From Terriglobia bacterium (lineage in GTDB: Bacteria > Acidobacteriota > Terriglobia > Terriglobales > Acidobacteriaceae), in assembly GCA_021325035.1 (NCBI GenBank), contig JAJPHW010000192.1:1-35675 (forward strand): a stretch of 35,675 bases of DNA. The letters are read 5' to 3'. Every line of letters begins with the position of its first letter. Position 1 is the stretch's first letter. A program made the translations under genes and the position numbers. The notes below the pieces were generated by a model. It had not been told where the DNA came from and did no database searches. It saw nothing but the letters and a program-made list of their open reading frames with translations. Shown one piece after another: positions 14,095-30,325 of this stretch.

Positions 14095-14129
14095 TTGGCG
14101 TCCCCGACGAGATTCGAACCCGTGTTATC
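14095..14129 (-). repeat. Displaced 3' fragment of tRNA-Glu (candidate attachment site, left end of island)
   Basis: This 35-bp stretch matches 30247-30281, the 3' part of the intact tRNA-Glu gene, with one mismatch (position 14110), in the same orientation. It covers the encoded CCA end, acceptor strand, T-arm and variable loop. It has no anticodon or D-arm, so it is not a working tRNA. The mismatch changes a T-stem C to T on the minus strand. Such fragments are left behind when an element integrates into a tRNA 3' end. Confidence 0.8.
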
Positions 14130-14330
14130 ACGCCTTTCTATGCGAATCCCCAGGCAAAACATCAACCCCATAGCGCGGTGTGGTGTCTGATCATTTCTAC
14201 ACTAATCGCGTATCCGTAATAGGTCGCGCGTAGTATTGTGAACCTCCGACGGGAACCGGAAAATTCCGCTCTCCACGCTACATTAACTTTCTGAGCAACC
14301 AAAATGTATTAGCTGTTAAAGTGCTGGATT

Positions 14331-15731
14331 CTACACAAACGGCTCGAGCTTACCCAAGATGGTCGGCAGATATTCCGAGACTGTGGGATGAATGTGCATG
14401 GCGCGCTGGATGACCGTGTACGGCGCCTTTGCATATATGATGTCGAGAAGAACATGAATCACTTCATCGCCTCCGACGCCCAGAATCGCAGCTCCCAGAA
14501 TCTGTTTCGTTTCTGCATCCACACAGATTTTCATGAAGCCTTGCATCTCACCTTTTTCGTAGGCGCGGCTGACCTTACTCATCGGATATTTCACCGCGAG
14601 GGCACGACGTCCGGATTTCCTCACCTGTGCGTCCGTCATGCCGCATCGCCCTAATGGTGGATCAATATATAGCGCGTAGGCTTGGATCCTATCGGAGAGC
14701 CGGCGATGGTCGGCGTTAAAGAGATTGTCCGCAACGATCTCGTAATCGTTATAAGAGGTATGCGTAAAGGCGCCGTGGCCGTTGCAGTCCCCGAGCGCCC
14801 ATATGCCGGGCACGTTGGTTTGCAGTTGATCATCTACTGCTATGTAACCACGATTGTCGGTTGCGACCCCGGCCTTTTCGAGACCCAGATCGCTGGTGTT
14901 GGGAACACGCCCAACAGCAAGAAGCACGTGCGTGCCCGTTACTTCCTTTGGGTCATCGCTGCAATCCATGCCGACGGCGACACCACCAACGTGTTTCGCC
15001 AGCGAGATACATTTCGCGTTCAGCCGGATTTGTATGTCCTCAGCCTCGAGAATTTCGCGCACAGCTTGCGAGATGTCTTCGTCCTCTCGTCCAATTAACC
15101 GCGGTCCCATTTCCACAATTGTGACTTCGCTGCCGAGCCGGCGATAAATTTGAGCGAACTCCAGCCCTACATAACTTCCGCCGACGATTACAAGATGCCC
15201 GGGCAAGGAATCGATATCCATCATTGATGAGTTGTTGAGAAACGGAACATCGTGAACGCCCGGCATATCCGGAACCGAAGCCCGCCCACCTACATTGATA
15301 TAAATCTTCTCGGCTTGCAGAACTTCATCATTGACAACAACAGTGTTCGGCGACCGGAAGCGGGCATGACCTTGAATGACCGTACAATTTGCCATTCCTC
15401 GAAGCCACTCCTCCACTCCCTTATTGGATCTCGCGGAGGCGGCATCTTTGCGGGCTTTGACCCGCTTCATATCTACGCGCATATCTCCAATGGAAAAACC
15501 ATATTCCGTGCCCCTGCTGGCAATATGGATCGCATAGGCGCTGGCCACGAGTGTCTTCGTCGGGATACATCCCGTATTAACACAGGTGCCGCCAAATTTA
15601 TGGCGTTCGATAATCGCGACGGTTTTTCCGGCGGCCGCAAACCGCGCTGCCAGGGGCGGGCCGGCCTGACCCGTGCCGATGATGATTGCGTCGAAGTGCT
15701 TCGTTTCTGGGACAGCAATTGCAGTGTTCAT
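14331..15731 (-). CDS. FAD-dependent pyridine nucleotide-disulfide reductase, RclA/MerA-like
   Basis: A 466-residue flavoenzyme. It has an FAD Rossmann motif (AIIIGTGQAGPPLAARFA, about residues 15-32), the redox-active disulfide GGTCVNTGCIPTKT (Cys50 and Cys55), an NAD(P)H-binding GGSYVGLEFAQIY, the second FAD motif GIWALGDCNG, and the C-terminal dimer helix with HIHPTVSEYLPTIL, where His and Glu form the catalytic pair. It has no N-terminal heavy-metal domain and no C-terminal Cys pair, so mercuric reductase proper is unlikely. RclA-type enzymes reduce metal ions or protect against reactive chlorine. It is not dihydrolipoamide dehydrogenase by context, because no 2-oxoacid dehydrogenase genes are nearby. 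It is the first unit of the island and has its own copy of the island promoter; GGAGC precedes the ATG. Confidence 0.85.
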   Translation of the reverse strand: MNTAIAVPETKHFDAIIIGTGQAGPPLAARFAAAGKTVAIIERHKFGGTCVNTGCIPTKTLVASAYAIHIASRGTEYGFSIGDMRVDMKRVKARKDAASARSNKGVEEWLRGMANCTVIQGHARFRSPNTVVVNDEVLQAEKIYINVGGRASVPDMPGVHDVPFLNNSSMMDIDSLPGHLVIVGGSYVGLEFAQIYRRLGSEVTIVEMGPRLIGREDEDISQAVREILEAEDIQIRLNAKCISLAKHVGGVAVGMDCSDDPKEVTGTHVLLAVGRVPNTSDLGLEKAGVATDNRGYIAVDDQLQTNVPGIWALGDCNGHGAFTHTSYNDYEIVADNLFNADHRRLSDRIQAYALYIDPPLGRCGMTDAQVRKSGRRALAVKYPMSKVSRAYEKGEMQGFMKICVDAETKQILGAAILGVGGDEVIHVLLDIIYAKAPYTVIQRAMHIHPTVSEYLPTILGKLEPFV

Positions 15732-15756
15732 AATTGCTCCGATCTGCCCTGGCTGA

Positions 15757-15816
15757 TTAATGGCAGAATCACGATGACAAATCTATTGGACGAACGTATC
15801 GACAGACAAGTATGCG
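15757..15816 (-). promoter_or_regulatory. Island promoter module 1 (flavoprotein reductase gene)
   Basis: Minus strand: operator 15791-15816 with one good half (GATACGTTCG) and a decayed outer half, TCCAA, -35 TAGATT (15780-15785), 17-bp spacer, -10 CATTAA (15757-15762). The sequence from -35 to the start codon is closely similar to module 6. Confidence 0.6.
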
Positions 15817-15863
15817 TCGGATTCACGGGGCAGAGTCGCGTACTTTATCCCACAGTGCCCCTA

Positions 15864-15920
15864 CTAAGGTATCGCCCATACCATCGTCCAATTGATTCGC
15901 TGGAGCGCTTCGGTTCTAAT
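15864..15920 (+). promoter_or_regulatory. Island promoter module 2 (GlcG/HbpS-like gene)
   Basis: Operator 15864-15886 with core GGTATCGCCCATACC, then TCCAA, -35 TTGATT (15892-15897), 17-bp spacer and -10 TCTAAT (15915-15920). The gene starts at 15969. Confidence 0.7.
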
Positions 15921-15968
15921 CTCCACATTGCAACCGATTTCGTGGGAGGGTTTTTGGGGAGAAAAATC

Positions 15969-16481
15969 ATGTCAAGCAACGTAGCAGAAATCGCCGTGAA
16001 AGCGCCGGTCACATCGAACCCGCTCGATGCCATCCCAAATGAAATACCGTTCGATGTGCCCTACGGCCGCCCAATATCACTGTGCCGGGCACTCGCAGTC
16101 ATTCACGCAGCGGTCGAAGAAGCCAAGAAGAGGAATTGGAAGGTGAATATCGCCGTTACCGATTCCGGAGGAAATTTAGTGGCTTTCCAACGAATGGACG
16201 GCGCAATGCTTGCCTCTATTCAGATTGCGGAGCACAAGGCGAAAGCCGCCGTTACCTTCCGCCGGCCAACGAAAGTCTTCGAGGATGGCGTCAACCTCAT
16301 GCATCTTAACTATCTGCTCGCGTTTGATGGGGTCATTGCGTCCCGAGGCGGAATCCCACTGATCGAGCAAGGGGATATCATCGGCGCAATCGGTGTTTCG
16401 GGAGGTACGGATTCCCAGGATGAAGTCGTGAGTAAGGCGGGCGCGGCATTAATCAATGATCCTCGGGCGAACATCAAATGA
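15969..16481 (+). CDS. GlcG/HbpS-family protein
   Basis: A 170-residue protein whose residues 35-165 form a GlcG/HbpS domain: AVIHAAVEEAKKRNWKVNIA, VTDSGGNLVAFQRMDGA, IAEHKAKAAVTF and GGIPLIEQGDIIGAIGVSGG. HbpS members bind haem and can sense redox stress; GlcG members accompany glycolate or related oxidation genes. No signal peptide is seen, so it is probably cytoplasmic, unlike secreted HbpS. The ATG at 15969 is chosen because GGGGAG precedes it and because the upstream open frame runs through the promoter and the divergent gene. It is the head and probably the only gene of its unit. Haem binding is possible but not shown by sequence. Confidence 0.85.
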   Translation: MSSNVAEIAVKAPVTSNPLDAIPNEIPFDVPYGRPISLCRALAVIHAAVEEAKKRNWKVNIAVTDSGGNLVAFQRMDGAMLASIQIAEHKAKAAVTFRRPTKVFEDGVNLMHLNYLLAFDGVIASRGGIPLIEQGDIIGAIGVSGGTDSQDEVVSKAGAALINDPRANIK

Positions 16482-16520
16482 CACAGATCTCTAGCGCCCA
16501 GAACAAAAAAATAACGTGAA

Positions 16521-16545
16521 GCCTCCGGCTTCGCTCGGTGGAGGC
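16521..16545 (-). terminator. Hairpin, possible terminator of the cupin gene
   Basis: GCCTCC (16521-16526) pairs with GGAGGC (16540-16545), extended by an inner CCG/CGG pairing with a bulge. Read on the minus strand it is followed after a few bases by a T-rich tract (16505-16513). It lies 70 bp after the cupin stop. Confidence 0.4.
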
Positions 16546-16614
16546 CCTGCGCGAGGTGCACAAATCCACTTCCATATTTTGCTGATCGTTCATCTTGTAT
16601 CGTTCCAACTCTTA

Positions 16615-17100
16615 CTACGAATTGTTGTTTCGCGGATCGTCCTCGGCGCTGAGGTATTCCAGTCCAAGCGGTCCCATCGCCGTAACTTGCGTGACGTATT
16701 CGCTGGATTTCGCCCAGTGGAAATGGGGCGTGTTCCCAGGGAGAATGATCACGGCGCCGGGAGGATAGGCTTCCAACTTATTCGCGTCGAATTCATCACC
16801 AAGACCGATATAAAAGACGCCGGAAATCACGGTATAGACTCGATCCTCGGGGTGCTTGTGCGGCATCAGCTTCTCGCCGTGGGGCATTTTGACCCTGATT
16901 GTGTAAGGGCCAGATTTCGAGGGCCGACCAACGACGACGGCCAGCCGGACGGAAGGTGGGAACGCCGGGAACTGTTTCCAGACGACGTCCTCGGGCAAGA
17001 TAGTTTTAAAAACCTCCTGCCCGAGTTGGTGAGGCCGGACCTCGCTGGGCTGGGCTTCGTTTTGCGCGACAAACTCTATTGCGCTGACGTTCTGAGACAT
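16615..17100 (-). CDS. Cupin-domain protein
   Basis: A 161-residue protein with one cupin barrel. Motif 1 is GEKLMPHKHPEDRVYTVISG, giving the HxH and Glu metal ligands; motif 2 is PGNTPHFHW, giving the last His. The metal site is therefore complete and a dioxygenase, isomerase or sensor-like role is possible. There is no signal peptide. GGAGG precedes the ATG by 6 nt. The gene follows the secreted alpha/beta hydrolase on the same strand with a 75-bp gap, so both probably share island promoter module 3. The natural substrate is unknown. Confidence 0.85.
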   Translation of the reverse strand: MSQNVSAIEFVAQNEAQPSEVRPHQLGQEVFKTILPEDVVWKQFPAFPPSVRLAVVVGRPSKSGPYTIRVKMPHGEKLMPHKHPEDRVYTVISGVFYIGLGDEFDANKLEAYPPGAVIILPGNTPHFHWAKSSEYVTQVTAMGPLGLEYLSAEDDPRNNNS

Positions 17101-17175
17101 ATAAAACCTCCACGATGCAGATATGTAGGACTTAAAGTCCGTCGTAGAACCGCCATAATTCCCCGCCGTTCGATT

Positions 17176-17964
17176 CTATTTTGCTTTTAACGCCGCTTGT
17201 TCGATCAACTCCGCCACTTCTTTCGGATAAGACAGCATGGCCAGATGATTGGCGGGTATGGTGATTGAGGTTGCCTTTATGTTCGCTGCTTCGTCTTTCT
17301 CGAGTTGGGGCGGGATCGCCCGGTCGTTCCCCGCAATCACGGCCCATGAAGGCTTGCTCTTCCACGCAGCGGTCGTGATTGTAGCTCCGAAAACAGATGC
17401 CGAGGTCTGACCCTGGGTAGCCGTGAGTACCTGCTGCTCGCTGAGCGTGAGATCTTGAGCCATGTCTTCCGCAATCCCTTTCGGAGTCGCCGTTAGAAAA
17501 CCCTGGGCGTCGGGGCGGAGTTCTGCGCCCAGCGGAGCAGGCGGGTACGGTTTACTGACGGAATTGATGGATTCACCGTCCCCGGGCGCAAAGGCCGCCA
17601 CGTAAACCAACCCGACAACCTTTGCGTCATTACCCGCTTCGGTAATAACGACGCCAGCGTAGGAATGGCCGACCAGTATCACAGGCCCGTCCTGTAAGGC
17701 GATTATGCGCTTCGTCGCTGCCACGTCGTCGGCCAGCAAGGTCAAAGGGTTCTGCACTGAGACTACATGAAAACCCTTCGCTTGGAGAATGCTAATCACT
17801 CTAGACCAGCACGATCCATCTGCCCAAGCGCCATGAACGAGGACGATATTTTTGGTCCCCTGCGGGAAGTTAGTCTGAGCGAATCCACTAACGTCGAGTC
17901 CGTGCAGGAGCATCAGCATTGTGGCTGCGATCAAAGCATTTCGGTACATTTGCGAAAGTTTCAT
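17176..17964 (-). CDS. Secreted Ser-type alpha/beta hydrolase
   Basis: A 262-residue protein with a signal peptide (MYRNALIAATMLMLLHGL then SGFAQ). It contains the oxyanion motif VHGAWADGSCW, the nucleophile elbow VGHSYAGVV with Ser101, and the catalytic His in ANHLAMLSYPKEVAEL. It resembles the EstC/methylesterase-type alpha/beta hydrolase group often named pyrethroid or salicylate-ester hydrolases. It should hydrolyse an ester or lactone in the periplasm. GGAG lies before the ATG. It is the first gene of a unit with the cupin gene and has a near-perfect copy of the island operator 56-86 bp upstream. Confidence 0.87.
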   Translation of the reverse strand: MKLSQMYRNALIAATMLMLLHGLDVSGFAQTNFPQGTKNIVLVHGAWADGSCWSRVISILQAKGFHVVSVQNPLTLLADDVAATKRIIALQDGPVILVGHSYAGVVITEAGNDAKVVGLVYVAAFAPGDGESINSVSKPYPPAPLGAELRPDAQGFLTATPKGIAEDMAQDLTLSEQQVLTATQGQTSASVFGATITTAAWKSKPSWAVIAGNDRAIPPQLEKDEAANIKATSITIPANHLAMLSYPKEVAELIEQAALKAK

Positions 17965-17993
17965 TTCTATCTCCTCGTAAATTGACTGTTGCG

Positions 17994-18050
17994 ATTAGGC
18001 CAGAACGACCGTGACCGCACAATTGGACGATGGTATCGGCGATACTTTCG
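17994..18050 (-). promoter_or_regulatory. Island promoter module 3 (alpha/beta hydrolase-cupin unit)
   Basis: Minus strand: operator 18028-18050 with core GTATCGCCGATACC, TCCAA, -35 TTGTGC (18017-18022), 17-bp spacer, extended -10 TGG+CCTAAT (hexamer 17994-17999). It lies back to back with module 4. Confidence 0.75.
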
Positions 18051-18111
18051 TATGAACTGTATTAAGAACCCGAAATACCTGCGTCATTTCCCTGATTTGT
18101 GATGAGCAATA

Positions 18112-18168
18112 CGAAGGTATTGCCAATACCATCGTCCAATTGTTTTACTTCAAGGTCTTTGGCTTAAT
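18112..18168 (+). promoter_or_regulatory. Island promoter module 4 (cytochrome P460 unit)
   Basis: Operator 18112-18134 is the best dyad of the set (core GGTATTGCCAATACC with outer CGA/TCG), then TCCAA, -35 TTGTTT (18140-18145), 17-bp spacer, extended -10 TGG+CTTAAT (hexamer 18163-18168). The gene starts at 18229. Confidence 0.78.
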
Positions 18169-18228: not shown

Positions 18229-18852
18229 ATGCCTGAATTTGTGACGAAATCGGTGGCACAAAAACAAGAAAAGAAGATAGCAAAACGGATTGGAATCAAA
18301 CGTATCGCCAGTTACACCATTGCCGGGACAGCCGCCGTGGCGTTCGCCATCCTCTGTGCAGTCGTTCTTCGCGCGCAAGACCAAAGCAAGAGTAACGACA
18401 AGTACTTATTAAAATCGCCGGGCGGAATTGCGTTCTCTGACTTCAGAGGATACGAAGACTGGTCTTTCGTTTCTTCGGCTCGTACCGACGAAGTGCTCAA
18501 AGTGATCGTCGCTAACCCAAAAATGATCAATGCATACAAAGCAGGCATTCCAGGCAATGGTCAGGCTTTTCCTGACGGTTCCCTCATCGTGAAGCTGCAA
18601 TGGAAGCCGAAGAAAAGCACCGAGGCTCAATTCGCCGTGGATGTGCCCGACTTCTTTAAACAGGCGTTCGTAATGGAAAAAGACAGCAAGAGGTTTCCGA
18701 AAACCGGCGGGTGGGGATATGCGGTGTTCAACTACGACGCCGCATCGAATACGTACAGCCCAGATCCCAGCGCCCTGCAAGACTGTGGAAACGCCTGCCA
18801 TACGGCTGTAAAGGCGAAGGACTACATCTTTCATCCATATCAGAAACGTTGA
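18229..18852 (+). CDS. Cytochrome P460-family protein with CX3CH haem motif
   Basis: A 207-residue protein. An N-terminal signal anchor follows a long basic stretch (hydrophobic YTIAGTAAVAFAILCAVVLRA at about residues 29-49). The P460 fold shows FSDFRGYEDWSFVSSARTD, FPDGSLIVKLQWKPK and GGWGYAVFNYDA. The C-terminal haem site reads CGNACHTAVKAKDYIF: Cys186, Cys190 and His191, that is CX3CH instead of the normal CX2CH. P460 relatives oxidise hydroxylamine or bind NO, or are plain c'-beta cytochromes. The Lys cross-link of true P460 cannot be assigned here. GGAG precedes the ATG. It heads a plus-strand unit with the next two genes under module 4. It acts outside the cytoplasm. Confidence 0.87.
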   Translation: MPEFVTKSVAQKQEKKIAKRIGIKRIASYTIAGTAAVAFAILCAVVLRAQDQSKSNDKYLLKSPGGIAFSDFRGYEDWSFVSSARTDEVLKVIVANPKMINAYKAGIPGNGQAFPDGSLIVKLQWKPKKSTEAQFAVDVPDFFKQAFVMEKDSKRFPKTGGWGYAVFNYDAASNTYSPDPSALQDCGNACHTAVKAKDYIFHPYQKR

Positions 18853-18898: not shown

Positions 18899-19198
18899 AT
18901 GCCTGAAGCGACGTGGAAACCACACGAGAAGCACGGACGGCTGACGGCGAAGAGTGACTTGCCCGACAGCGTTTACGCATTTCCGAAGCAGCGGAAAGAA
19001 CCATTGACCGACGCGCAACATGTACGCAATGCGGTGGCGCGATTCGATCAAGTGATCGACGTGTCGGATGACGACCGCGCTCAAGCGTTCGCCAACATCG
19101 AGAAAGCTGCAAAATACTATGACGTTAACCTTGCGGAAACGTCGTGGCACGAGCTCGGCGTGCATCCTCAAAAGAAGGGTAGACAGGCTACAGGCTAA
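18899..19198 (+). CDS. Small conserved protein, DUF6582-like
   Basis: A 99-residue soluble protein. The segment LPDSVYAFPKQRKEPLTDAQ followed by HVRNAVARFDQVIDVSDDDR and the ending TSWHELGV resemble a small family found in many bacteria (DUF6582-like), whose function I do not know. There is no signal peptide or membrane segment. AAGGA lies about 10 nt before the ATG. It is 46 bp after the cytochrome gene on the same strand and is probably co-transcribed. The name is from remembered family resemblance and was not searched. Confidence 0.7.
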   Translation: MPEATWKPHEKHGRLTAKSDLPDSVYAFPKQRKEPLTDAQHVRNAVARFDQVIDVSDDDRAQAFANIEKAAKYYDVNLAETSWHELGVHPQKKGRQATG

Positions 19199-19276: not shown

Positions 19277-20179
19277 ATGAAAGCAATCGTTGTTCGCCAA
19301 TATGGCGGTCCGGAAGTGTTGAAATTCGAAGACTACCCTGATCCGGTGCCAGGCGCGGGCGAAGTGCTGGTGAAAGTCGCAGCCACAAGTGTAAATCCTA
19401 TCGACTACAAGCGGCGCGCTGGATTAACGCAAGACTTCTACCCCCTTAAGTTTCCCGGACTCATAGGGGTTGATATCGCAGGGACCGTGGCTAAAATTGG
19501 TTCGGGAGTGGATGGTTTTTCCGTCGGCGATGATGTATTTGCTATGGCGGATAATACTTACGCCGAGCTTTGCGTGGTAAAAGCTGAAGTTCTGGCGAAA
19601 GTTCCCAAGGGACTCGATTTGATTCAAGCAGCCGCGCTACCGCTGGTGACCACGACCGGCAACCAGCTTCTTTCCGCGACGGGAGTCAAAGCGGGCCAGA
19701 CGGTTCTGGTCGTTGGCGCTGCGGGAAATGTCGGGCGATCGGCGGTATTCACTGCGAAGGCGCGAGGGGCGACTGTGATCGCGGGAGTTTTGAAGAGGCA
19801 GATAGATGAGGCGAAGACAGTAGGTGCGGATCAGGTGATCGCAACTGACGACGATACCGCGATTGCGAATCTTGCGCCGCTCGATGCAGTGGCGGATACG
19901 GTCGGCGGTAAAACCGCTGAGAGGCTGATCGCCAAGGTCAAGTCCGGCGGAGTGTACGCATCGGTTGTCGAGGTGCCGCAGAACGCTGCGAAGTATCCAT
20001 CTGTAAAGCTGGTGCACGTATTCTCGAAATTCGACAGGAAAACGCTTGAGTTCATGGCCGAAGCCGTGCGGGATAGCAAGCTGGTGATCCCGATTAGCCA
20101 AAAACTGCCGCTCAGTCAGGCGGCTGAGGCCCAAGCAGCGGCAGAGAAGGGCGGCGGGAAGATCTTGCTGGTGGCTTGA
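19277..20179 (+). CDS. MDR-family NADP-dependent oxidoreductase (quinone oxidoreductase-like)
   Basis: A 300-residue medium-chain reductase. The N-terminal GroES-like part (VRQYGGPEVLKFEDYPDPVP; SVNPIDYKRRAG; PGLIGVDIAGTVAKIGSGV) is followed by the Rossmann motif VLVVGAAGNVGRSAV at about residues 140-155. The zinc ligands of alcohol dehydrogenases are missing, so it belongs with the zinc-less quinone/enone reductases, which act on quinones or alpha,beta-unsaturated carbonyls using NADPH. AAGGAG precedes the ATG. It is third in the P460 unit, 78 bp after the small gene. The role fits removal of reactive electrophiles, which is inference. Confidence 0.88.
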   Translation: MKAIVVRQYGGPEVLKFEDYPDPVPGAGEVLVKVAATSVNPIDYKRRAGLTQDFYPLKFPGLIGVDIAGTVAKIGSGVDGFSVGDDVFAMADNTYAELCVVKAEVLAKVPKGLDLIQAAALPLVTTTGNQLLSATGVKAGQTVLVVGAAGNVGRSAVFTAKARGATVIAGVLKRQIDEAKTVGADQVIATDDDTAIANLAPLDAVADTVGGKTAERLIAKVKSGGVYASVVEVPQNAAKYPSVKLVHVFSKFDRKTLEFMAEAVRDSKLVIPISQKLPLSQAAEAQAAAEKGGGKILLVA

Positions 20180-20245: not shown

Positions 20246-20917
20246 TCATGCAGCTGCGTTCATGTGCCGCTTGGCTAGAGCCTCAATGTCAGGCTCAGTT
20301 ACCGCCGAGAGGTCTGCCTGTTCGGTCGCTATCACGCGGCGAAAAATCTCCGAGTGATGGCTCTTTAAGTATTCGTTCAAGAAGTCGGCAGCGTTGCTTT
20401 TTCCGGTGGCGTGACCGATGATGACGATTTCATTAGCCGGAGTAATATCTTTCGCTATCTCCTCGTAAAATGAATCTTCTTCTGGTACGCGATCGCCACG
20501 GTAGTGAGCTTCCTTTCGATGAATCAGATGATGATGGAAATGAAAAGGATCGTAAGGTCGCACCGTGCGTTCATCGGCCGGACGACTTCCGCCCAAATCT
20601 TTGTAAACATGCGCGACGTGGTGGTCAATGACGACGATCATGCGGCCAGGTTGGACTGGCTCTTCTACACGTTTACTTATTCCGGCCTCCTTTAAGAATT
20701 TGCGCAGCCGGGAAATTTCCTCCACGCCAAGATCATGGCTATGCGGCCGCTTGAAAAAGGCCTGTTGGCTGCCGACACGGAAAATGAATTCATCGTTCCC
20801 GTGCGGTTGAACTTCACCTAGATGCTCGACCAGTTCGACAGTCTCGCTCCAACTTAGGTTATGAGGTAACTTGCCGTTGAGAAGATTTTGATGCAGCGAT
20901 TCCAAGTGTTTGCTCAT
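20246..20917 (-). CDS. eRF1-domain-like (bacterial archaeo-eukaryotic release factor family) protein with HicA-like N-terminus
   Basis: A 223-residue protein with two parts. Residues 1 to about 85 (LSWSETVELVEHLGEVQPHG; FIFRVGSQQAFFKRP) look like a HicA-type double-stranded-RNA-binding fold, but no HicB partner is present. Residues from about 95 on start with RMIVVIDHHVAHVYKD and include a His-rich loop (FHFHHHLIH) and NEIVIIGHATGKSNAADFL, a pattern of bacterial eRF1 domain-3-like ('translational machinery') proteins. A link to ribosome rescue or stress is possible but not proven. ATG at 20917 is chosen over GTG at 20923; neither has a good ribosome site. It follows the alpha/beta hydrolase gene by 76 bp on the same strand. 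Confidence 0.7.
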   Translation of the reverse strand: MSKHLESLHQNLLNGKLPHNLSWSETVELVEHLGEVQPHGNDEFIFRVGSQQAFFKRPHSHDLGVEEISRLRKFLKEAGISKRVEEPVQPGRMIVVIDHHVAHVYKDLGGSRPADERTVRPYDPFHFHHHLIHRKEAHYRGDRVPEEDSFYEEIAKDITPANEIVIIGHATGKSNAADFLNEYLKSHHSEIFRRVIATEQADLSAVTEPDIEALAKRHMNAAA

Positions 20918-20993
20918 AATCACTACTATAGCCCCTTCGTGATGCTTGCAAGATTAGCAAACAAGATTTGCGAACTTCACTCCTGTATGGATC

Positions 20994-21878
20994 TCAGCCC
21001 GCACGTCTCGCCTTCAATTCGCTCCCTGCCATAAAATTTCCGACGAACGCCGCGATCTCATCGGCAGCAGTGTCCAATGCGAAATGGCTCGCGTCAAGAA
21101 CGTGGACTTCGGCATTCGGAACATCACGGCGATAGCGTTCGGATTCGCCGATGTCAAAAGAAGAATCGTATTTGCCCCAGATCACGAGTAGCCGCGGCTG
21201 ATTTTCGTGCATCCACCCCTGCCACTTCGGATAGGCGTCCACATTCGTGCGGTAATCGTAGAAAAGATCGCTTTGTATATCGGCCTGGCCCGGCTGATTA
21301 AGAAAATAAAACTCGTCGGTCCAGAGATCTGGATCGAGGCGTTCAATGTCCTGGCCGATTCCAACGTGACGCGATCGCGTGGTGGCGAACGACAAGAGAT
21401 TCGTCCGCAGTGCGCTTTCGTTAGCAGTGCGATCAGCCCAGAACGCTCGGCGCGTTTTCCAAATCGCTCCTAAGCCTTCGTTGTGGGCGACGGCGTCCTG
21501 CACGATCAGGCCTTCTATCCGGTCTGGATGTGCTAGTGCCATTCGAAAGCCGACGGGGCCACCATAGTCCTGCATGTAAAGTGTGTAGTACTGGAGACCA
21601 AGCGCTTCGGCGAAGTGATTCATAATTTCGGCGATGTGATCGAACGTATATGCGAATTTCTTCGGATCGGGCCAGTCACTATGTCCAAAACCGGGATAAT
21701 CGGGTGCGATTAGGTGATAGCGGTCGGACAACCTTGCGAAAAGCGGCTCAAACATGCGCGATGAAGACGGAAGGCCGTGCAGCAGAAGAAGTGTCGGTGC
21801 GTCTTTAGGGCCTGCCTCTCTGTAGAAAATCGATAGACCATCAACTTGCAAGGTGCGATAGGAAGTAGGGTAGTTCAT
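20994..21878 (-). CDS. Alpha/beta hydrolase, haloalkane dehalogenase/epoxide hydrolase-like
   Basis: A 294-residue cytoplasmic enzyme. It has the oxyanion motif LLLHGLPSSSRMF, the strand-4 motif APDYPGFGHSDWP, the nucleophile elbow YMQDYGGPVGFRMA with Asp104 in the nucleophile position, and the catalytic His in LDASHFALDTAADEIAAF. The elbow is close to that of haloalkane dehalogenases (QDWGG), but the halide-holding Trp next to the Asp is replaced by Tyr, so epoxide or ester-like substrates are as likely. ATG at 21878 is chosen because AAGGAAAGGA lies just upstream; a longer open frame from 21935 has no such signal. It is downstream of the EHN-domain hydrolase gene (268 bp apart) and before the eRF1-like gene. 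Confidence 0.87.
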   Translation of the reverse strand: MNYPTSYRTLQVDGLSIFYREAGPKDAPTLLLLHGLPSSSRMFEPLFARLSDRYHLIAPDYPGFGHSDWPDPKKFAYTFDHIAEIMNHFAEALGLQYYTLYMQDYGGPVGFRMALAHPDRIEGLIVQDAVAHNEGLGAIWKTRRAFWADRTANESALRTNLLSFATTRSRHVGIGQDIERLDPDLWTDEFYFLNQPGQADIQSDLFYDYRTNVDAYPKWQGWMHENQPRLLVIWGKYDSSFDIGESERYRRDVPNAEVHVLDASHFALDTAADEIAAFVGNFMAGSELKARRAG

Positions 21879-21995
21879 CGAAGATTCCTTTCCTTGCGCG
21901 AAAGTTCTGAGCCGAGGGCTCCACAGCGACAGCAAATATTCCGCAGCCGCCGTTCAAAATCAGTTGACCCGAACTCTCATCGTCTCGTTATTTTT

Positions 21996-23379: not shown

Positions 23380-23431
23380 GGGGTCCTCCTTATTGAGTAG
23401 TTTTGATTGTTTGGGAGCTTTCAATGCCCCA

Positions 23432-23488
23432 ATCAAAACAAAAGAATGGAAGAGAAACAATTGGACGAAAGTATTGGCGATACCTTGG
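23432..23488 (-). promoter_or_regulatory. Island promoter module 5 (EHN epoxide hydrolase gene)
   Basis: Minus strand: operator 23466-23488 with core GGTATCGCCAATACT, TCCAA, -35 TTGTTT (23455-23460), 17-bp spacer, -10 TTTGAT (23432-23437). It lies inside the 3' end of the upstream small gene. Confidence 0.72.
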
Positions 23489-23771
23489 TATCGCTTGATG
23501 CTGGGAGGGACTTCCGACGATATTCCGCGGCATCGATCCGACTTGCCAATCGAGCTAAAGCTGCGATCGTCACCGATCGCCAGTCGCTGCTTGTTGGGGG
23601 AAGCGAGCAATCCATTATTTCCGCTTCGTCTAGCCAATCCTGCGCCGCGGTGCGGGCTTGTTCCGGGCCAAACTGTGCCGTCACTGCGTTTATAAATGCA
23701 AAGAGCTCCCGCTCAGCCAAGTGGAGGTCCGCTTCCCGTGGAATGTGAGAGGTACTTCTTGAAGCGCTCAT
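23433..23771 (-). CDS. Small protein of unknown function with island promoter
   Basis: A 112-residue protein not recognised. The middle (DLHLAERELFAFINAVTAQF; ARTAAQDWLDEAEIMDCSLP; DWRSVTIAALARLASRI) looks helical and ordered; the last 25 residues are low-complexity and overlap the promoter of the next gene, so the true end may be non-essential. ATG at 23771 is chosen because CAGGAGCAATT precedes it. The promoter and leader are nearly the same as those of the flavoprotein reductase gene 8 kb away, which supports a real gene. It may be co-transcribed with the EHN hydrolase. Confidence 0.65.
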   Translation of the reverse strand: MSASRSTSHIPREADLHLAERELFAFINAVTAQFGPEQARTAAQDWLDEAEIMDCSLPPTSSDWRSVTIAALARLASRIDAAEYRRKSLPASSDTKVSPILSSNCFSSILLF

Positions 23772-23797: not shown

Positions 23798-23855
23798 ATT
23801 AGGCCAGAATCATGATGGCGAATCTATTGGACGAACGTATCAACCGATACCAAAG
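23798..23855 (-). promoter_or_regulatory. Island promoter module 6 (small unknown gene)
   Basis: Minus strand: operator 23832-23855 (24 bp, one longer than usual; core GGTATCGGTTGATAC), TCCAA, -35 TAGATT (23821-23826), 17-bp spacer, extended -10 TGG+CCTAAT (hexamer 23798-23803). Confidence 0.7.
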
Positions 23856-23882: not shown

Positions 23883-23939
23883 TTCCCGTGAATCCAATAC
23901 CAAAGTACAATGGACTCCCCTTATGAAATGCCGCATGAT
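23883..23939 (+). promoter_or_regulatory. Island promoter module 7 (response-regulator pair), half-site operator
   Basis: The gene-proximal operator half is present (CCAATACC at 23894-23901) and the distal half is decayed. ACAA precedes -35 TGGACT (23911-23916), a 17-bp spacer and -10 CATGAT (23934-23939). The expected start point falls on the ATG at 23946. Confidence 0.5.
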
Positions 23940-23945
23940 TTTGCT

Positions 23946-24341
23946 ATGAAGTCCCTTAAGGACGGAGGCGGGGGCGAATGCCCGCTTCTATCCGTAGTTG
24001 ATGATGATGAATCCATGCGCGAGTCGCTGCCTGATCTGATTAAAGAGTTCGGCTATAAAGCTCGAGCTTTTGCGTCAGCAGAAGAATTTATCTCGTCTGG
24101 TTCTGCCGACGAGACTAGCTGCTTAATCCTTGATATCGCGATGCCAGGCATGAGCGGGCCGGAACTTTACGATGAGCTAAAACGTCGCGGAAAAAACGTC
24201 CCGGTCATATTTATCACTGCTCAAAAAGATGAGACGATTCGGGCTCGGGCGTTCGAAGAGGGCGCGTCAGGGTTCTTAATCAAACCATTCAGTGACGCGG
24301 CTTTGCTTGCAGCCATCAAGACCGCACTCAAGGCCACATGA
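23946..24341 (+). CDS. Single-domain response regulator (FixJ-type receiver)
   Basis: A 131-residue receiver domain without an output domain. It shows LLSVVDDDESMRESL (acidic pocket Asp19-Asp21), the phosphoacceptor Asp63 in CLILDIAMPGMSG, the switch Thr in VIFITAQKD, and Lys in GFLIKPFSD. It is closest in style to FixJ/NodW receivers. Such lone receivers act as phosphate shuttles or sinks. ATG at 23946 is chosen because the predicted promoter puts the transcript start there; the longer ATG at 23910 would sit at the -35 element. No ribosome site is seen, so it may be leaderless. The second regulator follows 33 bp later. Confidence 0.85.
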   Translation: MKSLKDGGGGECPLLSVVDDDESMRESLPDLIKEFGYKARAFASAEEFISSGSADETSCLILDIAMPGMSGPELYDELKRRGKNVPVIFITAQKDETIRARAFEEGASGFLIKPFSDAALLAAIKTALKAT

Positions 24342-24374: not shown

Positions 24375-25055
24375 ATGAATGCGGTGCGCGCACTTAGCCG
24401 TGAAGTAGAGGCGTTACCAATGTCCAGTGCCATCCCCATTGTCTTCATTGTTGATGATGACGTCTCCGTCCGTGAATCACTGGAATTATTGATTCGCGAT
24501 GAGAAATGGAAGCCAGAGACCTTCGCCTCCGCACAAGAATTCCTCGACTACCCAAGAAAACGTGTTCCGAGCTGCCTTGTCCTGGATCTTTCTCTTCCCG
24601 GTTTAAACGGCCTTGAATTGCAGAAACAACTTTTGGCTGAACACGCCGACATGCCGATCATCTTCATCACCGGTCACGGCGATGTGCCGCAGTCAGTCCA
24701 AGCCATGAAAGCCGGCGCACTTGAATTTTTGACCAAGCCAATTGATAGTGACGCCTTGGTGAGTGCCATTCGAAATGCCCTTCAACGAAGTAGTGTAGCC
24801 CTTGTTCAAGATGCCGAGATGCAGGATCTTCGCAACCGTTACGCTTCGCTGACTACCCGAGAAAAGCAGGTTATGAAGCTAGTCGTCTCTGGCTTGCTGA
24901 ACAAACAAGTCGGGGGCGAGCTTGGCATCAGCGAAATCACGGTAAAGGCGCATCGTGGACAAGTCATGCAGAAAATGAAGGCGAACTCCCTCGCCGACCT
25001 GGTGAGGATGGCGAGCAAACTTCGTCCTGCGAATCAAGCTATCCACCTGGCTTAA
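24375..25055 (+). CDS. FixJ/StyR-type response regulator with LuxR HTH (candidate island master regulator)
   Basis: A 226-residue two-domain regulator. The receiver (about residues 20-135) has [15 protein letters not shown], phosphoacceptor Asp71 in [13 protein letters not shown], Thr in [11 protein letters not shown] and Lys in EFLTKPID. The LuxR/GerE HTH (about 150-215) reads [20 protein letters not shown], then [18 protein letters not shown]. It should bind DNA as a phosphorylated dimer and activate transcription. AAGGGGG precedes the ATG. It is co-transcribed with the lone receiver; the FixL-like kinase 3 kb downstream is the likely partner. It is the only two-component DNA-binding regulator in the island, so it is the best candidate to bind the eight dyad operators. 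Confidence 0.9.
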
Positions 25056-25259: not shown

Positions 25260-25317
25260 CGAAGGTATCGGTCAATACCATCGTCCAATGGATTGGTTTT
25301 GGAGCTTCTGGCTTAAT
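25260..25317 (+). promoter_or_regulatory. Island promoter module 8 (upstream of small ORF and sigma-factor operon)
   Basis: Operator 25260-25283 (24 bp; core GGTATCGGTCAATACC), TCCAA, -35 TGGATT (25289-25294), 17-bp spacer, extended -10 TGG+CTTAAT (hexamer 25312-25317). The rest of the 299-bp gap from 25056 to 25354 is AT-rich and shows nothing else clear. Confidence 0.72.
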
Positions 25318-25618: not shown

Positions 25619-26236
25619 ATGCAACAAACCGAAGCACACATTGCGACTGAAAATTATTCCAAACTATTAAATGGGGAAAGACCGACCCGAGATTTGCATG
25701 ACGTTTTTAGAAGGCACGTACCCTCTCTTCACAAAAGGGCTTACAGGATTTTAGGCAATGCTGCCGACGCCGAAGATGCGGTTCAGGAGGCTCTTCTCTC
25801 CGCATGCAAGCACCTCGATCAATTTCGCGGAGACTCGCAGATCTCTACTTGGCTAACTACCATCGTGTTCAACTGTGCCCGTATGCAATTACGTCAACGG
25901 CGGGGTAAAGTCCATGTGTCACTGGACGAAAAGGTCGGAGAAAGTCAGCAATACTCGCTTTCGGAACGGTTGGCAGGGCGTGGGCCTAGTCCAGAGGAGG
26001 AGTATCGAAATTGTGAACTGACTGGGCACATAAAGCAATTGATGACCCAGCTTTCGCCAACTCTACTTAGGAGCTTTCAACTCAGCGAGATGGACGGTCT
26101 CTCCATCCGTGAAACGGCAGAGATTCTGGGAATACCGACCGGAACTGTAAAGGCCCAACTGTCACGAGCGCGAAAGAAACTCAAGCAATTGATGCAGATG
26201 GTGCTTCAACCTCGATTGTCTAGGAGGAGAGCATGA
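25619..26236 (+). CDS. ECF-type sigma-70 family sigma factor
   Basis: A 205-residue sigma factor with region 2 (RAYRILGNAADAEDAVQEAL; FRGDSQISTWLTTIVFNCAR, about residues 40-95) and region 4 (LSIRETAEILGIPTGTVKAQ, then LSRARKKLKQL, about 160-195). There is no region 1 or 3, as in extracytoplasmic-function sigma factors. No anti-sigma with an HxxxCxxC zinc motif is adjacent. AAGGA precedes the ATG. The next gene starts in an ATGA overlap with the stop. It may direct some promoters of the island or elsewhere; the -35/-10 sequences of the island modules look sigma-70-like rather than ECF-like (no GAAC -35), so the dyad modules are probably not its targets. Confidence 0.9.
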   Translation: MQQTEAHIATENYSKLLNGERPTRDLHDVFRRHVPSLHKRAYRILGNAADAEDAVQEALLSACKHLDQFRGDSQISTWLTTIVFNCARMQLRQRRGKVHVSLDEKVGESQQYSLSERLAGRGPSPEEEYRNCELTGHIKQLMTQLSPTLLRSFQLSEMDGLSIRETAEILGIPTGTVKAQLSRARKKLKQLMQMVLQPRLSRRRA

Positions 26237-26505: not shown

Positions 26506-26734
26506 CTTATATGGAGCGGTTCAATGTCCACGGAGGTTGGTGCTTTGGGAAATTGGCGAGCCCACGCCTGTCTGCTACGACGAGGACGTTCGCGTCGGAT
26601 TTCTGTTACCATTCCTGCGTGCAAACGAGGAAGACGGTTGATGTGCGTGGGGCGCACGCTATCGCTTATGCCTAACGTTGCAAAGGCGGTGAATACTGCT
26701 TTCGCTATCCATCAAAATCGAAACCATATGTCGT

Positions 26735-28096
26735 GTGATACGCCGGGCCGGTTCGCCTTGGTGTGTATTTCATAGCTTTAGATATTTACCTATCACGGGA
26801 ATTCTGCTTTCAGTACTCCTTTTTTCCGGTTGTAGCAAACCCGCACAACCTGTAACCATCACATTTTTCGATTCTGACGCCAGAGGCGTGGCGAGCGACC
26901 ATCGGATGATCCCGGAGGCTTACTTACAGGAATTCACACAAGAAACAGGCATTCGGGTCAATGATCTACCGACGCCAGAAGACAACGCATCGAAACTGGA
27001 TCTTGCCATGGAGTTGCTCCGCAGCGGCGCTCCGTCCCCTGACCTCTACGGTGTTGATACGATCTGGACTGGAGCTATGAGTGAATACCTTATTGACTTG
27101 CAACCTTACTTCGCCTCAGAGATTTCATCGGAGGCCCCCGAACTCATCGAACCCTACAGAGTTCAGGGAAAGGTTGTGGCCATGCCCAAACAGCCTCTTG
27201 GCGTGCAGGTTTTGGTTTATCGGACGGACCTTCTCGCCAAGTATGGTTACAAAACACCCCCGAGAACCTGGGATGAGCTTGAGAAAATGGCACGCCGAAT
27301 TCAAGCTGGAGAACGTGCAAAAGGGAAGAAAGATTTTTGGGGGTTCGTGTGGGCCGGCGCGATTGCGACCGATAGCGAACAACTCACCATGGAAGGGTTA
27401 GAGTGGCAGGCAGCAGAGGGGGGCGGCCACATTATTGAGCCCGACGGAAAGATCAGCGTAAACAACCCAAATGCTATCCGGGCCTGGGAACGAGCGGCCC
27501 ATTGGTTAGGTTGGATCACCCCTCCGAGTGTTGTTTCTTATACCGCGACGGACGCCGAAAATAAATTTTGGGTTTCCGGCGAAGCTGCATTCCTGCTCAG
27601 TCACGCCATCGTCTACGAGGTTTTCGCCGAAGACAAGCCGTTCCGCGACCTGGCGGGAGTGACAAGCGTCCCTGCGGGGACAAGCGCGCGCGTGGCCACG
27701 ATTGGGGGCTACGCACTGGGGATATCCCGCTTTTCACCCCACCGTGCTGAATGCGTCAAGTTCATCGAGTTCCTGACTCGCAAGCAGGCAGAATACAGGG
27801 CGACTCATCCTGAGAAGCTGGACCGCAAAGTAGAGTACTTTGAAGTTCCGCCAGTAATAAGGGAAATCTATCCCTGGTGGTACAAACCGGGGGATTCGGG
27901 AGGGAGTGAGATCATCTCGCGCCCGTCGGGGGTTGCAGGATCGAACTATGAAGCGGTGTCCAAGGCCTATACCCAGGCACTGCATTCCGTGCTGACGCGG
28001 GAGTCTACCGCGCCCGCAGCAGCTGCATCGCTCGAGAGTGATCTGGTTCGGATCATGGCTAATAGTAAGGCTCAATCGGGAACAGGTTCACACTGA
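26735..28096 (+). CDS. ABC-type sugar solute-binding lipoprotein (orphan), paired with the histidine kinase
   Basis: A 453-residue family-1 extracellular solute-binding protein. The N-terminus has a hydrophobic leader and lipobox (GILLSVLLFSGCSKP), so it is anchored by Cys to the membrane. Typical motifs follow: DLYGVDTIWTGAMSEYLIDL, QPLGVQVLVYRTDLLAKYG, PRTWDELEKMARRI and GGYALGISRFSPHRAECVKF. Homologues feed trehalose/maltose-type importers, but no permease or ATPase gene is present. The histidine kinase starts 1 nt after this stop, so a sensing role is likely. GTG at 26735 is the only sensible start in frame and lacks a strong ribosome site. The ligand is unknown. Confidence 0.88.
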   Translation: MIRRAGSPWCVFHSFRYLPITGILLSVLLFSGCSKPAQPVTITFFDSDARGVASDHRMIPEAYLQEFTQETGIRVNDLPTPEDNASKLDLAMELLRSGAPSPDLYGVDTIWTGAMSEYLIDLQPYFASEISSEAPELIEPYRVQGKVVAMPKQPLGVQVLVYRTDLLAKYGYKTPPRTWDELEKMARRIQAGERAKGKKDFWGFVWAGAIATDSEQLTMEGLEWQAAEGGGHIIEPDGKISVNNPNAIRAWERAAHWLGWITPPSVVSYTATDAENKFWVSGEAAFLLSHAIVYEVFAEDKPFRDLAGVTSVPAGTSARVATIGGYALGISRFSPHRAECVKFIEFLTRKQAEYRATHPEKLDRKVEYFEVPPVIREIYPWWYKPGDSGGSEIISRPSGVAGSNYEAVSKAYTQALHSVLTRESTAPAAAASLESDLVRIMANSKAQSGTGSH

Positions 28097-28097
28097 G

Positions 28098-29987
28098 ATG
28101 AATCGATTGCGACTCAACATTGGCCCACGCCTGGTTTTGTGCTTCGCGCTCATCATCGTTTCGATGTTGGCCGGAGATGTAATCGTTCTATGGCAATTCC
28201 ATATTGTCCAGGCGCAGGCAGAGCGACTCAATGGATATGACGAGGAGTTGGTAACTGTCTTGCGTGTTCACTCGGATATGTTGAAGTTTCGTGACACGCT
28301 GGAGTCGCTTGCAAGTGCGCGAGACTCCGAACGTCTGAAGGCAGAGACTCAATCAATGAATGTGGCGATTTCGGAGGACATGCGGCGCGCTAAAAGCGCG
28401 CTGCTGGCCGTACATTCCGACAATGCCTCTGACCCCACGATTCTCCCCACCTTAGCGGTCGTCCAGTCGAACCTCCAATCGGAAACCGCCTCGGTGATCG
28501 AGTTAGCGGAAGCGAATGATTGGAATGCCTTGCAAGTGCGGCTGGCCAATCAGCTGCGCCCGCTCGAGTTTTCGATCTCTGCCTTGGTAGAGCGAATCGA
28601 TCACGAAGTGAGGGCGGAACATGCCCAAGCTGCAGCCAAGATCCGTCAAGTGCAGCAGTGGATTTTTATCGCCGTACCGGCCACGGTCGTTCTCACGTTG
28701 TTGATTGCTGGAACGTTGGGACTCGCCATTACGCGCAGCATCACCCGGCCACTGGAACAACTCGTCCAAGGTTCAAAGAGGTTAGCAGGAGGTGATTTTA
28801 AACATCGGGTGGCCCTCCAGGGAGAAGACGAACTTGCCCAACTGGGACGCGTGTCGAATGATACAGCGCAGCAATTACAGGATCTGTATGAGAGCTTGCA
28901 AAACAGTGAGGACCGGCTGCGTCGTGTGATCAACACGATTCCCGCGCACGTGTGGAGCACTTTGCCCGATGGTTCAGTGGATTTCATCAATCAGCGTTTG
29001 CTCGAATCGACCGGGATGCCGATTGATGCATTGCTTGGCTCGGGCTGGCAATCGATTGTTCATCCGGATGATCGTACTCGATACATCACTAAGTGGAGAT
29101 CGGCATTGGCCGCGGGAGAGCCTGTCGAGATTGAAGCACGTGTCTGGACTGCACAGCACGACTATCGCTGGTTGCTTGTGCGTAATGTGCCTTTGCGTGA
29201 TGGTCATGGAGAGATAGTCAAGTGGTATGGCACAGGAATCGATATAGAGGACCGCAAACGCGCGGAAGAGTCATTACGTAAAGCGCAGGGAGATCTGGCA
29301 CACGCGAATCGCGTAACCACCATGGGCGAACTCAGCGCCTCACTTGCGCACGAGATTAATCAACCCATCAGTGGCGCCATCACAAATGCGTCTACCTGCC
29401 TGCGCCGGCTCGACCATGAGCAGCCTGATCTTGAAGGCGCTCGGGTTGCGGCTTCAAGGATAATTCGCGACGCAAACCGGGCAGCTGAGATCATTGACCG
29501 AATCAAGATGTTTTTTAGAAAGGGGGTTGCGACAAAGGAGCGCCTCGATGTCAACGAAATGATTCGAGAGATGGAGATCCTTTTGCACAATGAGGCGACC
29601 CAGCACTCGGTTTCTGTGCAGACCAAACTCTCAGCCGATCTCCCACTTATTGTGGCAGACCGCGTCCAGTTGCAGCAGGTGTTAATGAACCTCATGATCA
29701 ATGGGATCGAGGCAATGAAGGCCGTCGACGGCCTGCGCCAACTCACGCTTGGCACCCGGAATGAGGGCAAAGAACAGCTTCTGGTATCAGTCGAAGACAC
29801 TGGTATCGGACTTCCCGCCAACCAAGCTGACCAGATATTCAACGCTTTCTTTACTACAAAGCAACACGGCACCGGTATGGGGCTTCGCATCAGCCGAACG
29901 ATTATTGAGGCCCACGGGGGCCGCCTCTGGGCTACCGACAACTATCCTCGCGGGGCAAGTTTTCATTTCACGCTAGCTGTTTCTTAG
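28098..29987 (+). CDS. FixL/DctB-like sensor histidine kinase (TM, helical sensor, HAMP, PAS, HisKA, HATPase)
   Basis: A 629-residue membrane kinase. The first membrane helix (LVLCFALIIVSMLAGDVIVL, about residues 12-31) is followed by a helical periplasmic domain of about 150 residues, a second helix (IFIAVPATVVLTLLIAGTL), HAMP (SITRPLEQLVQGSKRLAGGD) and a PAS domain (about 275-395, HPDDRTRYITKWRSALAAGE; RDGHGEIVKWYGTGIDIEDR). The H-box MGELSASLAHEINQPISGA has His418. The N box NLMINGIEAM, DTGIGL and GTGMGL complete the ATPase. This H-box class partners FixJ-type regulators. ATG at 28098 is chosen: it comes 1 nt after the binding-protein stop, and the frame upstream overlaps that gene. It probably senses through the binding protein and phosphorylates the island response regulators. 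Confidence 0.92.
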   Translation: MNRLRLNIGPRLVLCFALIIVSMLAGDVIVLWQFHIVQAQAERLNGYDEELVTVLRVHSDMLKFRDTLESLASARDSERLKAETQSMNVAISEDMRRAKSALLAVHSDNASDPTILPTLAVVQSNLQSETASVIELAEANDWNALQVRLANQLRPLEFSISALVERIDHEVRAEHAQAAAKIRQVQQWIFIAVPATVVLTLLIAGTLGLAITRSITRPLEQLVQGSKRLAGGDFKHRVALQGEDELAQLGRVSNDTAQQLQDLYESLQNSEDRLRRVINTIPAHVWSTLPDGSVDFINQRLLESTGMPIDALLGSGWQSIVHPDDRTRYITKWRSALAAGEPVEIEARVWTAQHDYRWLLVRNVPLRDGHGEIVKWYGTGIDIEDRKRAEESLRKAQGDLAHANRVTTMGELSASLAHEINQPISGAITNASTCLRRLDHEQPDLEGARVAASRIIRDANRAAEIIDRIKMFFRKGVATKERLDVNEMIREMEILLHNEATQHSVSVQTKLSADLPLIVADRVQLQQVLMNLMINGIEAMKAVDGLRQLTLGTRNEGKEQLLVSVEDTGIGLPANQADQIFNAFFTTKQHGTGMGLRISRTIIEAHGGRLWATDNYPRGASFHFTLAVS

Positions 29988-30247
29988 GACGCGTAGTTTC
30001 CTAATTTAGGGACACTACCGGACGCTGGAAGCTTGGCCGGTAGGAGCAACTGATGGTGTGCTCGGTGAAGGCATCATGCGTAATGCCTGCTTCAGTACAA
30101 CAGTGGATGGCTGTGGCTGTACATGCAGGCGTTGAAGCCAACATAGCGCCAGACCATATGACAATTGCCTAATCTCATCCCGCGCGAGAATAACTATCTT
30201 GGACTGTTGTGGGAAGATCAGCCCGGCACGTGAATGCATTGATATAT
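29988..30247. other. Non-coding end of island before tRNA-Glu
   Basis: Both strands were read for an integrase or transposase remnant and none was recognised. A hairpin (CTACCGG 30015-30021 with CCGGTAG 30037-30043) follows the kinase stop by 27 bp and may end that transcript, although it has no T-run. Nothing else clear is seen. Confidence 0.4.
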
Positions 30248-30325
30248 TGGCGTCCCCGACGGGATTCGAACCCGTGTTATCGCCGTGAAAGGGCGGTGTC
30301 CTAGGCCGGGCTAGACGACGGGGAC
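30248..30325 (-). tRNA. tRNA-Glu (anticodon TTC)
   Basis: The minus strand folds as a 78-nt tRNA with acceptor GTCCCCG/CGGGGAC, discriminator G and an encoded CCA, T-arm ACGGG-TTCGAAT-CCCGT and anticodon loop CTTTCAC with TTC (Glu). The base of the anticodon stem has a C-A mismatch (GGCGA in place of GGCGG). The D-loop is slightly longer than in E. coli tRNA-Glu. The 3' 35 bp match the displaced fragment at 14095-14129, so this gene is the likely integration site and was restored by the element. Confidence 0.93.

Follow-up and report, generated by a model that had tools for sequence, protein, structure and literature searches.

The question raised by this locus is how a set of regulatory and enzyme genes came to fill the space between a complete tRNA-Glu gene and a displaced copy of its 3' end. 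The window, by which we mean the whole stretch of 35,675 nucleotides that was analysed, is an entire contig (C73) of a source assembly of 232 contigs that is 98% complete. Within it, positions 14095-14129 and 30247-30281 form a direct repeat of 35 nt, identical at 34 of 35 positions, which spans CCA(A), the 3' strand of the acceptor stem, the T arm, and the variable loop plus 2 nt of the anticodon stem; the sequence-only reading that this work follows up had rightly described a one-mismatch repeat running from the CCA end through the variable loop. ARAGORN and Rfam place a tRNA-Glu(TTC) gene at complement 30248-30325 (Rfam boundaries 30251-30325), and the partial copy lies downstream of it, on its 3' side, in the same orientation and reaching the CCA end. 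The two ends of the interval and their neighbours are as follows.

12489-14087, plus strand: MFS_3 transporter, ending 7 bases before the fragment (8 in the sequence-only reading); rare in the family, its clade not seen with the regulon
14095-14129, minus strand: displaced 3' fragment of tRNA-Glu, a putative distal att remnant of 35 nt (34/35), missing the 10 nt before the anticodon-loop start
30248-30325, minus strand: complete tRNA-Glu (TTC), the presumed target gene (ARAGORN, Rfam)
30466-31056, plus strand: right-flank gene (hyp30466), which with tRNA-Glu, PPDK and GlyS makes up the conserved side of the site

The best other ungapped match to the 35-mer on either strand of the window carries 14 mismatches. 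Across the whole 3.86-Mb genome a 331-nt stretch around the fragment matches only itself and the tRNA copy (E<=0.001; tRNA copy E 1.2e-9), a 161-nt tRNA query finds two places only (E<=0.001), and the fragment is the sole partial tRNA-Glu copy found. The complete gene and its cognate fragment share one replicon, the interval that they bound measures 16.15 kb, within the 2-200 kb of Islander-type islands, and the fragment lies outside any conserved coding domain.

As the relatives compared are other genera of the same family or order, with no genome of the same genus and no empty site in the sets searched, the history of the site has to be read from more distant loci. The tRNA-Glu loci that we fetched come nearly all from the window's family or order. 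Many of them keep the order tRNA-Glu, hyp30466, PPDK, GlyS on the 5' side, and the best 80 of 291 records of right-flank gene homologues all bear Acidobacteriota names, including Acidobacteriaceae, Terriglobales, Terriglobia and Candidatus Sulfotelmatobacter, with a top identity of 64%. The 3' side is variable, and the only protein cluster common to more than 4 of 35 loci (proteins of at least 80 aa) is a tyrosine integrase, present in 9 of the 35 fetched loci, from 8 genomes. Joining the fetched loci to 80 right-flank-gene loci and removing identical sites gave 76 distinct loci with a complete tRNA-Glu, window included. In 64 of these the 3' side extends for at least 1.2 kb; an integrase ORF (a short remnant in a few cases) lies within 400 bp of the tRNA 3' end in 22 of the 64 and within 3 kb in 24, and each of the 22 has an integrase ORF or remnant oriented toward the tRNA. 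On the 5' side the same HMM detected no integrase within 3 kb in any of 74 loci; 7 of these loci supplied the sequences for this HMM and so match it by construction. Judged from these loci, tRNA-Glu(TTC) is a recurrent tyrosine-integrase target in these Acidobacteriota relatives. A scan of the 3' flanks of tRNA-Glu in 74 loci recovered the motif TCAANNACTTA just past the CCA end: 20 of 26 loci with an integrase have it (leave-one-out), as do 21 of the remaining 48, a group to which the window belongs, each at p<0.01 relative to random stretches. This motif may be an integrase arm site and as such could reveal lost elements; the tRNA flank of the window itself fails the motif test (p 0.085).

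Displaced fragments like that of the window occur in these relatives as well. Fragments of the tRNA-Glu 3' end, 41-49 nt long, were found in 13 of 60 relatives, a 29-nt match in G023 being excluded. In four of them (G004, G031, G034, G047) no more than 17 kb separate the fragment from the complete gene; in the remainder the fragment is found on a different contig or, for G030, at a distance of 0.73 Mb, so that a lone fragment is no sure sign of an element's near end. Of 20 fragments shown with their flanks, 16 extend exactly to the anticodon loop sequence CTTTCAC, some sharing up to 3 more bases, whereas in the other four this sequence is changed (L092 and the first copy of L102) or absent (L081, L209). 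Ends at CTTTCAC fit a crossover in the anticodon loop, which corresponds to class A in the relevant passages of the Islander paper (PMC4383910), class J standing for the T-stem region, and CTTTCAC is likely the crossover point. An integrase together with a same-orientation fragment spans 8.6 kb in L068, 11.8 kb in L077 and 15.6 kb in L097, while L081 (2.7 kb) and L092 (3.75 kb) show a fragment but lack an integrase within 3 kb. These loci offer parallels for the 16.15 kb of the window and for its missing integrase, and by its fragment without integrase the window resembles the L081/L092 type. Some contigs carry several fragments, three on G038:C12 (L098: 4322, 7874, 12383) and two each on G021:C13 (L102: 7413, 12520) and G047:C155 (L097), which suggests arrays of elements. 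The 8.6-kb G031 element (L068) also encodes, at 1433-3362, an ATPase and a RloB-like protein, named from reading translations and possibly a defence pair.

Taken with the integrases at the site in relatives and their fragments reaching CTTTCAC, the fragment of the window very probably originates from tyrosine-integrase insertion at tRNA-Glu, in line with the recombinase origin first proposed for it. The window fragment is nevertheless damaged: with 35 nt, as against 41-49 nt in relatives, it ends 2 nt into the anticodon stem, whereas those of relatives mostly end at the anticodon loop, and it stops 10 nt short of the loop start, the adjoining bases failing to match ungapped. The absence of an integrase, also noted at the outset, was borne out by every search. 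The integrases of 7 relatives gave nothing better than E 0.1 against the window by tblastn, the HMM of the same 7 gave a best E of 2.4 over six frames with filters off, Pfam recognised no integrase among 30 chosen window ORFs, and no integrase remnant was seen in the window, not even in the 259 bases next to the tRNA. The integrase within or overlapping the island that an Islander-type definition requires was thus not found. Nor were integration, replication, transfer or virion genes found in the interval by the ORF scans (Pfam on 30, PHROGs on 10, small ORFs lying outside both scans), which returned regulators, a transporter, unknowns and one weak 'toxin' match.

The first ORF of the interval lies 201 bases past the fragment and the last one stops 259 bases short of the tRNA copy. 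Between them are the following genes.

14331-15731, minus strand: FAD-containing pyridine nucleotide-disulphide oxidoreductase (PyrRed; NF004992, above the curated cut-off)
15990-16481, plus strand: HbpS-like haem-degrading family protein (domain at residues 276-398 of ORF 15252-16481; start trimmed by inspection)
16615-17100, minus strand: ORF weakly like (R)-mandelonitrile lyase (E 4e-4, 20 bits against a curated cut-off of 140)
17176-17964, minus strand: alpha/beta hydrolase (ABH1; Pfam)
18229-18852, plus strand: cytochrome P460 family protein (Pfam)
18899-19198, plus strand: DUF6582 protein (Pfam)
19277-20179, plus strand: zinc-type alcohol dehydrogenase / quinone oxidoreductase (ADH; Pfam, NCBIfam matches below cut-offs)
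20246-20923, minus strand: protein without a Pfam family (weak PHROG match annotated 'toxin', E 8e-4)
20994-21935, minus strand: alpha/beta hydrolase (ABH2), haloalkane-dehalogenase-like (below cut-offs)
22147-23454, minus strand: epoxide hydrolase (EPHX; EHN plus alpha/beta hydrolase; start trimmed by inspection from ORF 22147-23637)
23910-24341, plus strand: single-domain response regulator (Pfam)
24375-25055, plus strand: FixJ-type response regulator (receiver plus GerE; Pfam)
25619-26236, plus strand: ECF-type sigma factor (Pfam)
26735-28096, plus strand: solute-binding protein (SBP_bac_1; Pfam)
28038-29987, plus strand: PAS/HAMP histidine kinase (Pfam; its ORF overlaps the solute-binding ORF)

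The 20246 protein has a 63% homologue on pACIX903 (NC_015058.1, L237 10001-10685), a conjugative plasmid of Granulicella tundricola, where it is split into two annotated ORFs among stress genes. For the solute-binding protein, plasmids gave remote matches only (<60%), and this candidate was set aside. The suggested comparison of composition inside and outside brought no clear support: GC is 52.7% in the interval, 53.3% to the left and 53.8% to the right, and codon-usage correlations are 0.76 (left-interval), 0.83 (interval-right) and 0.84 (left-right). With GC this flat, composition was dropped as a test of foreign origin, being of no use for or against it.

What sets the interval apart is a shared sequence in its promoter regions. 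Seven copies of CAATTGGACGA-NN-GTAT..ATACC lie at 15.8-25.3 kb, all inside the interval, in agreement with the first view that the inside is accessory and shares one promoter-region sequence. Predicted by a motif model, they are:

15783-15814, plus strand: predicted operator 1
15863-15894, minus strand: predicted operator 2
18020-18051, plus strand: predicted operator 3
18111-18142, minus strand: predicted operator 4
23458-23489, plus strand: predicted operator 5
23824-23855, plus strand: predicted operator 6, the weakest
25260-25291, minus strand: predicted operator 7

Their scores of 31-42 bits are in-sample, the model having been built from the same seven; the rest of the window stays below 14, and in 1.74 Mb of relatives' DNA one site reaches 16 bits. 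The best other candidate in the genome, among places with at most 2 mismatches to the core pattern or 3 to the longer one, scores 22.3 bits. The interval links a receiver plus GerE regulator to a histidine kinase, and the common predicted operator stands near target genes, in relatives together with the regulator, so the interval genes look like one FixJ-type regulon; the direction of the genes is mixed. Of 39 boxes in 26 stretches, 7 have an island family within 700 bases on the predicted side and 8 on the opposite side, so that outside the window the operator and the direction of the genes do not agree consistently.

Parts of this gene set recur elsewhere. In genus g28 the best copies are 89% (PyrRed), 89% (ADH), 93% (DUF6582), 86% (EPHX), 85% (HbpS), 76% (ABH2) and 70% (P460) identical, against 82% (PPDK), 64% (GlyS) and 58% (hyp30466) for core genes in one g28 genome; as these best hits come from loci partly picked for cargo and are set against three core genes, the comparison favours the cargo. 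The regulators are just 56-74% identical to g28 or g7 copies and ABH1 45% (g7), and the ECF, SBP, HK and 20246 proteins have no g28 or g7 copy over 70% of their length. EPHX occurs in 39 of 397 other family genomes (E<=1e-120). G121 has EPHX (87%), FixJ (74%), DUF6582 (86%), ADH (88%) and P460 (70%) within 20 kb, where the 26-position model finds five operator matches at 32-37 bits, and G286 has ADH (88%), DUF6582 (93%), ABH2 (76%) and FixJ (68%) with three such matches. A strong operator accompanies RR (74%), FixJ (85%) and SBP (85%, cut by the contig end) in G036, and operator-bearing stretches of G343 and G327 contain HbpS (85%), ADH (87-89%), DUF6582 (94%) and PyrRed (89%). In G036 (L114 14142-15107) the gap between FixJ and SBP, about 965 bases, has no ECF sigma match, where the window has its ECF gene (25619-26236). 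Of 19 EPHX stretches, 5 have an operator match of at least 18 bits and 14 have none. Counting that of the window, 58 of 398 family genomes, from 18 of 79 genera, contain the exact pattern ATTGGACGAWVGTATYG; read backwards it has one match in the table. Operator matches are clustered in G253:C5 (99-129 kb), G331:C139, G276:C162 and G424:C582, perhaps in bigger clusters than that of the window. As the enzyme genes, most at 70-94% amino acid identity, and the operator recur at other loci and in other genera, the cargo is accessory and probably mobile.

The tRNA-Glu site, on the other hand, was not seen with these copies. None of the 19 EPHX stretches contains a complete tRNA-Glu, no fetched regulon copy stands at a complete tRNA-Glu(TTC), and neither this tRNA nor an integrase was found with the regulon in G121 and G286. 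Conversely, EPHX, P460, DUF6582, HbpS and SBP are absent from the 75 other tRNA-Glu loci (E<=1e-8), and none of the window's main cargo families matched in the integrase-bearing elements. A tRNA-Glu(CTC) near the G286 copy and a tRNA-Phe near a G331 copy were considered and dropped, there being no 3'-end repeat and no integrase in the fetched stretch. The latter copy, in L322 (G331:C212, 7629-9843), is an EPHX/ABH2/P460 stretch with an operator, about 1 kb or less from the tRNA-Phe 3' end. L326 (G011:C17) contains, at 16410-16455, a worn tRNA-Glu fragment of 46 nt (83%) that extends to CCTTCAC. An EPHX homologue (72%) lies about 6 kb away from it, in a stretch with no operator or integrase; the 68 cargo-related stretches gave no other match of this kind, and it may be due to chance.

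The sequence-only reading took the outside of the interval to be mostly core, which holds on the right, where hyp30466 follows the tRNA in conserved order, and fails on the left. The M18 gene has a match in 3 of 60 relatives (1 of 36 from the same family) and the phosphodiesterase-TPR gene in 1 of 60 (0 of 36; both at E<=1e-60, with at most 18 candidates per genome scored for the latter), and MFS is matched in 17 of 397 other family genomes (E<=1e-130). Judged from these searches, the left flank is not core. The proposal that the MFS gene end faced tRNA-Glu before the insertion likewise found no support: MFS, LysRich, phosphodiesterase-TPR and M18 have no homologue at the 75 other tRNA-Glu loci (E<=1e-8), 57 of which extend beyond 2 kb on the 3' side, and the stretches fetched around three clade-mate MFS genes with the 3' side present showed no tRNA. 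Homologues near EPHX, ABH2 or ADH in G121, G286 and G337 first suggested that MFS travels with the cargo. In a tree of 20 rows (the window, two outgroups and 17 of 18 other matches, the omitted one being G216, whose gene is split over two frames) the window groups with G149, G397, G286:C120 and G415 (100/97), while the G121, G286 and G337 genes form a separate clade (100/99), and MFS was therefore dropped from the cargo. In G405 and G375, of one genus, a distant MFS match starts about 190 bases past a pair of differently sequenced tRNA-Glu genes; it faces the opposite way to that of the window, and we draw no meaning from it.

Based on these data we propose that a tyrosine integrase inserted an element by recombination at the anticodon-loop region of the tRNA-Glu gene, the element bringing a new tRNA 3' half and moving the old one outward, where it would have become the 35-nt fragment. 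Loss of the integrase gene, whose place in relatives is immediately inside the tRNA 3' end, and with it of the fragment's crossover end would then have left the block fixed. We infer that the solute-binding protein and the histidine kinase act as the sensor of some compound, that the predicted operator between divergent genes is the binding site of the FixJ-type regulator, and that the enzymes detoxify epoxides, quinones or similar compounds; the products of the regulated genes, oxidoreductases, hydrolases and an epoxide hydrolase, would then most likely counter reactive or epoxide-type chemical stress.

Whether the regulon came with that insertion is a separate matter. We lean slightly to 14095-30281 being the decayed scar of a site-specific insertion at tRNA-Glu(TTC) with the regulon as its cargo, and equally slightly to arrival of the regulon with it in one step: that the gene set takes up almost all of the interval favours cargo, whereas the lack of a recognised mobility gene and the occurrence of the gene set at other locations speak for later gathering. 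A smaller but appreciable probability goes to the fragment being the relic of an older, unrelated insertion whose element is gone or eroded, the regulon having been gathered later by homologous exchange or other routes. The differing 3'-side gene content among relatives, the interval without a recognised mobility gene, the fetched regulon copies that lie elsewhere than at this tRNA, and the eroded crossover end are all consistent with such a history; against it, regulon genes fill the interval almost fully and no other filler was recognised. The sequence-only reading had itself named a widespread relic unrelated to gene content as something that would refute it, and this applies by half: such fragments are indeed widespread with differing content, as is expected of a hotspot.

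It is conceivable, though unlikely, that two or more successive insertions took place and that MFS, M18 and phosphodiesterase-TPR stem from an earlier one, the fragment being an internal boundary of a larger accessory region; such accretion can coexist with either history of the regulon. The rarity of the left-flank genes in the family and the existence of multi-fragment contigs (G038:C12 with three, G047:C155 and G021:C13 with two) point this way, yet no second fragment appears farther left up to the contig end. The flank past the window fragment resembles the integrase-side motif TCAANNACTTA at p 0.011, before correction for two looks, but this match shares bases with the MFS stop codon and could be fortuitous. 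That the repeat is a chance match or an assembly join at a short repeat is very improbable: direct repeats can misjoin in an assembly of 232 contigs, but 34/35 stands against a next best match with 14 mismatches, the copies differ by one base, the contig continues 14 kb and 5 kb past them, and the same kind of fragment is present in related genomes.

Returning to insertion with the regulon as cargo, one may ask how far the gene set has travelled. We regard it as possible, though doubtful, that this is a family-wide mobile detoxification regulon, in which a sensor, a FixJ-type regulator, one operator and a loose set of targets have spread together across Acidobacteriota genera, the tRNA-Glu hotspot being one door among others. 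If this is true, genes bring their operator along and a newcomer is wired in on arrival. In the titles and abstracts that we looked through, a partial and mostly open-access literature, we found no description of this site or gene set, and the passages on acidobacterial prophages in PMC5900883 do not name this site.

Compared with the tRNA-gene islands in the relevant passages of the Islander paper (PMC4383910), the window shares a tDNA with a downstream, same-orientation, non-coding 3' fragment that reaches CCA and bounds 16 kb, and the fragments of its relatives fit the anticodon-loop class (A); it differs in that no integrase was found and the crossover end is damaged, and the Islander integrase filter would reject it. 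The elements of G031/L068, G034/L077 and G047/L097 have the same target, end geometry and similar size, but they keep integrase and fragment, and their cargo differs, comprising the ATPase/RloB-like pair, primase-like and resolvase-like ORFs (translations read by eye). Comparison across relatives places the likely crossover point of a recurrent integrase target, tRNA-Glu(TTC), in soil Acidobacteriota. The receiver plus GerE regulator of the window and a PAS kinase with FixL as its best NCBIfam match recall FixL/FixJ, whereas the kinase reaches 199 of the 850-bit FixL cut-off, stands beside a solute-binding protein, and has presumed targets in detoxification genes; we know of no operator like the predicted one. 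The scar itself is real and of an ordinary kind, and the regulon is the less expected part, an unnamed two-component gene set whose operator, present in part of the family, gives a handle on how regulated gene sets move.
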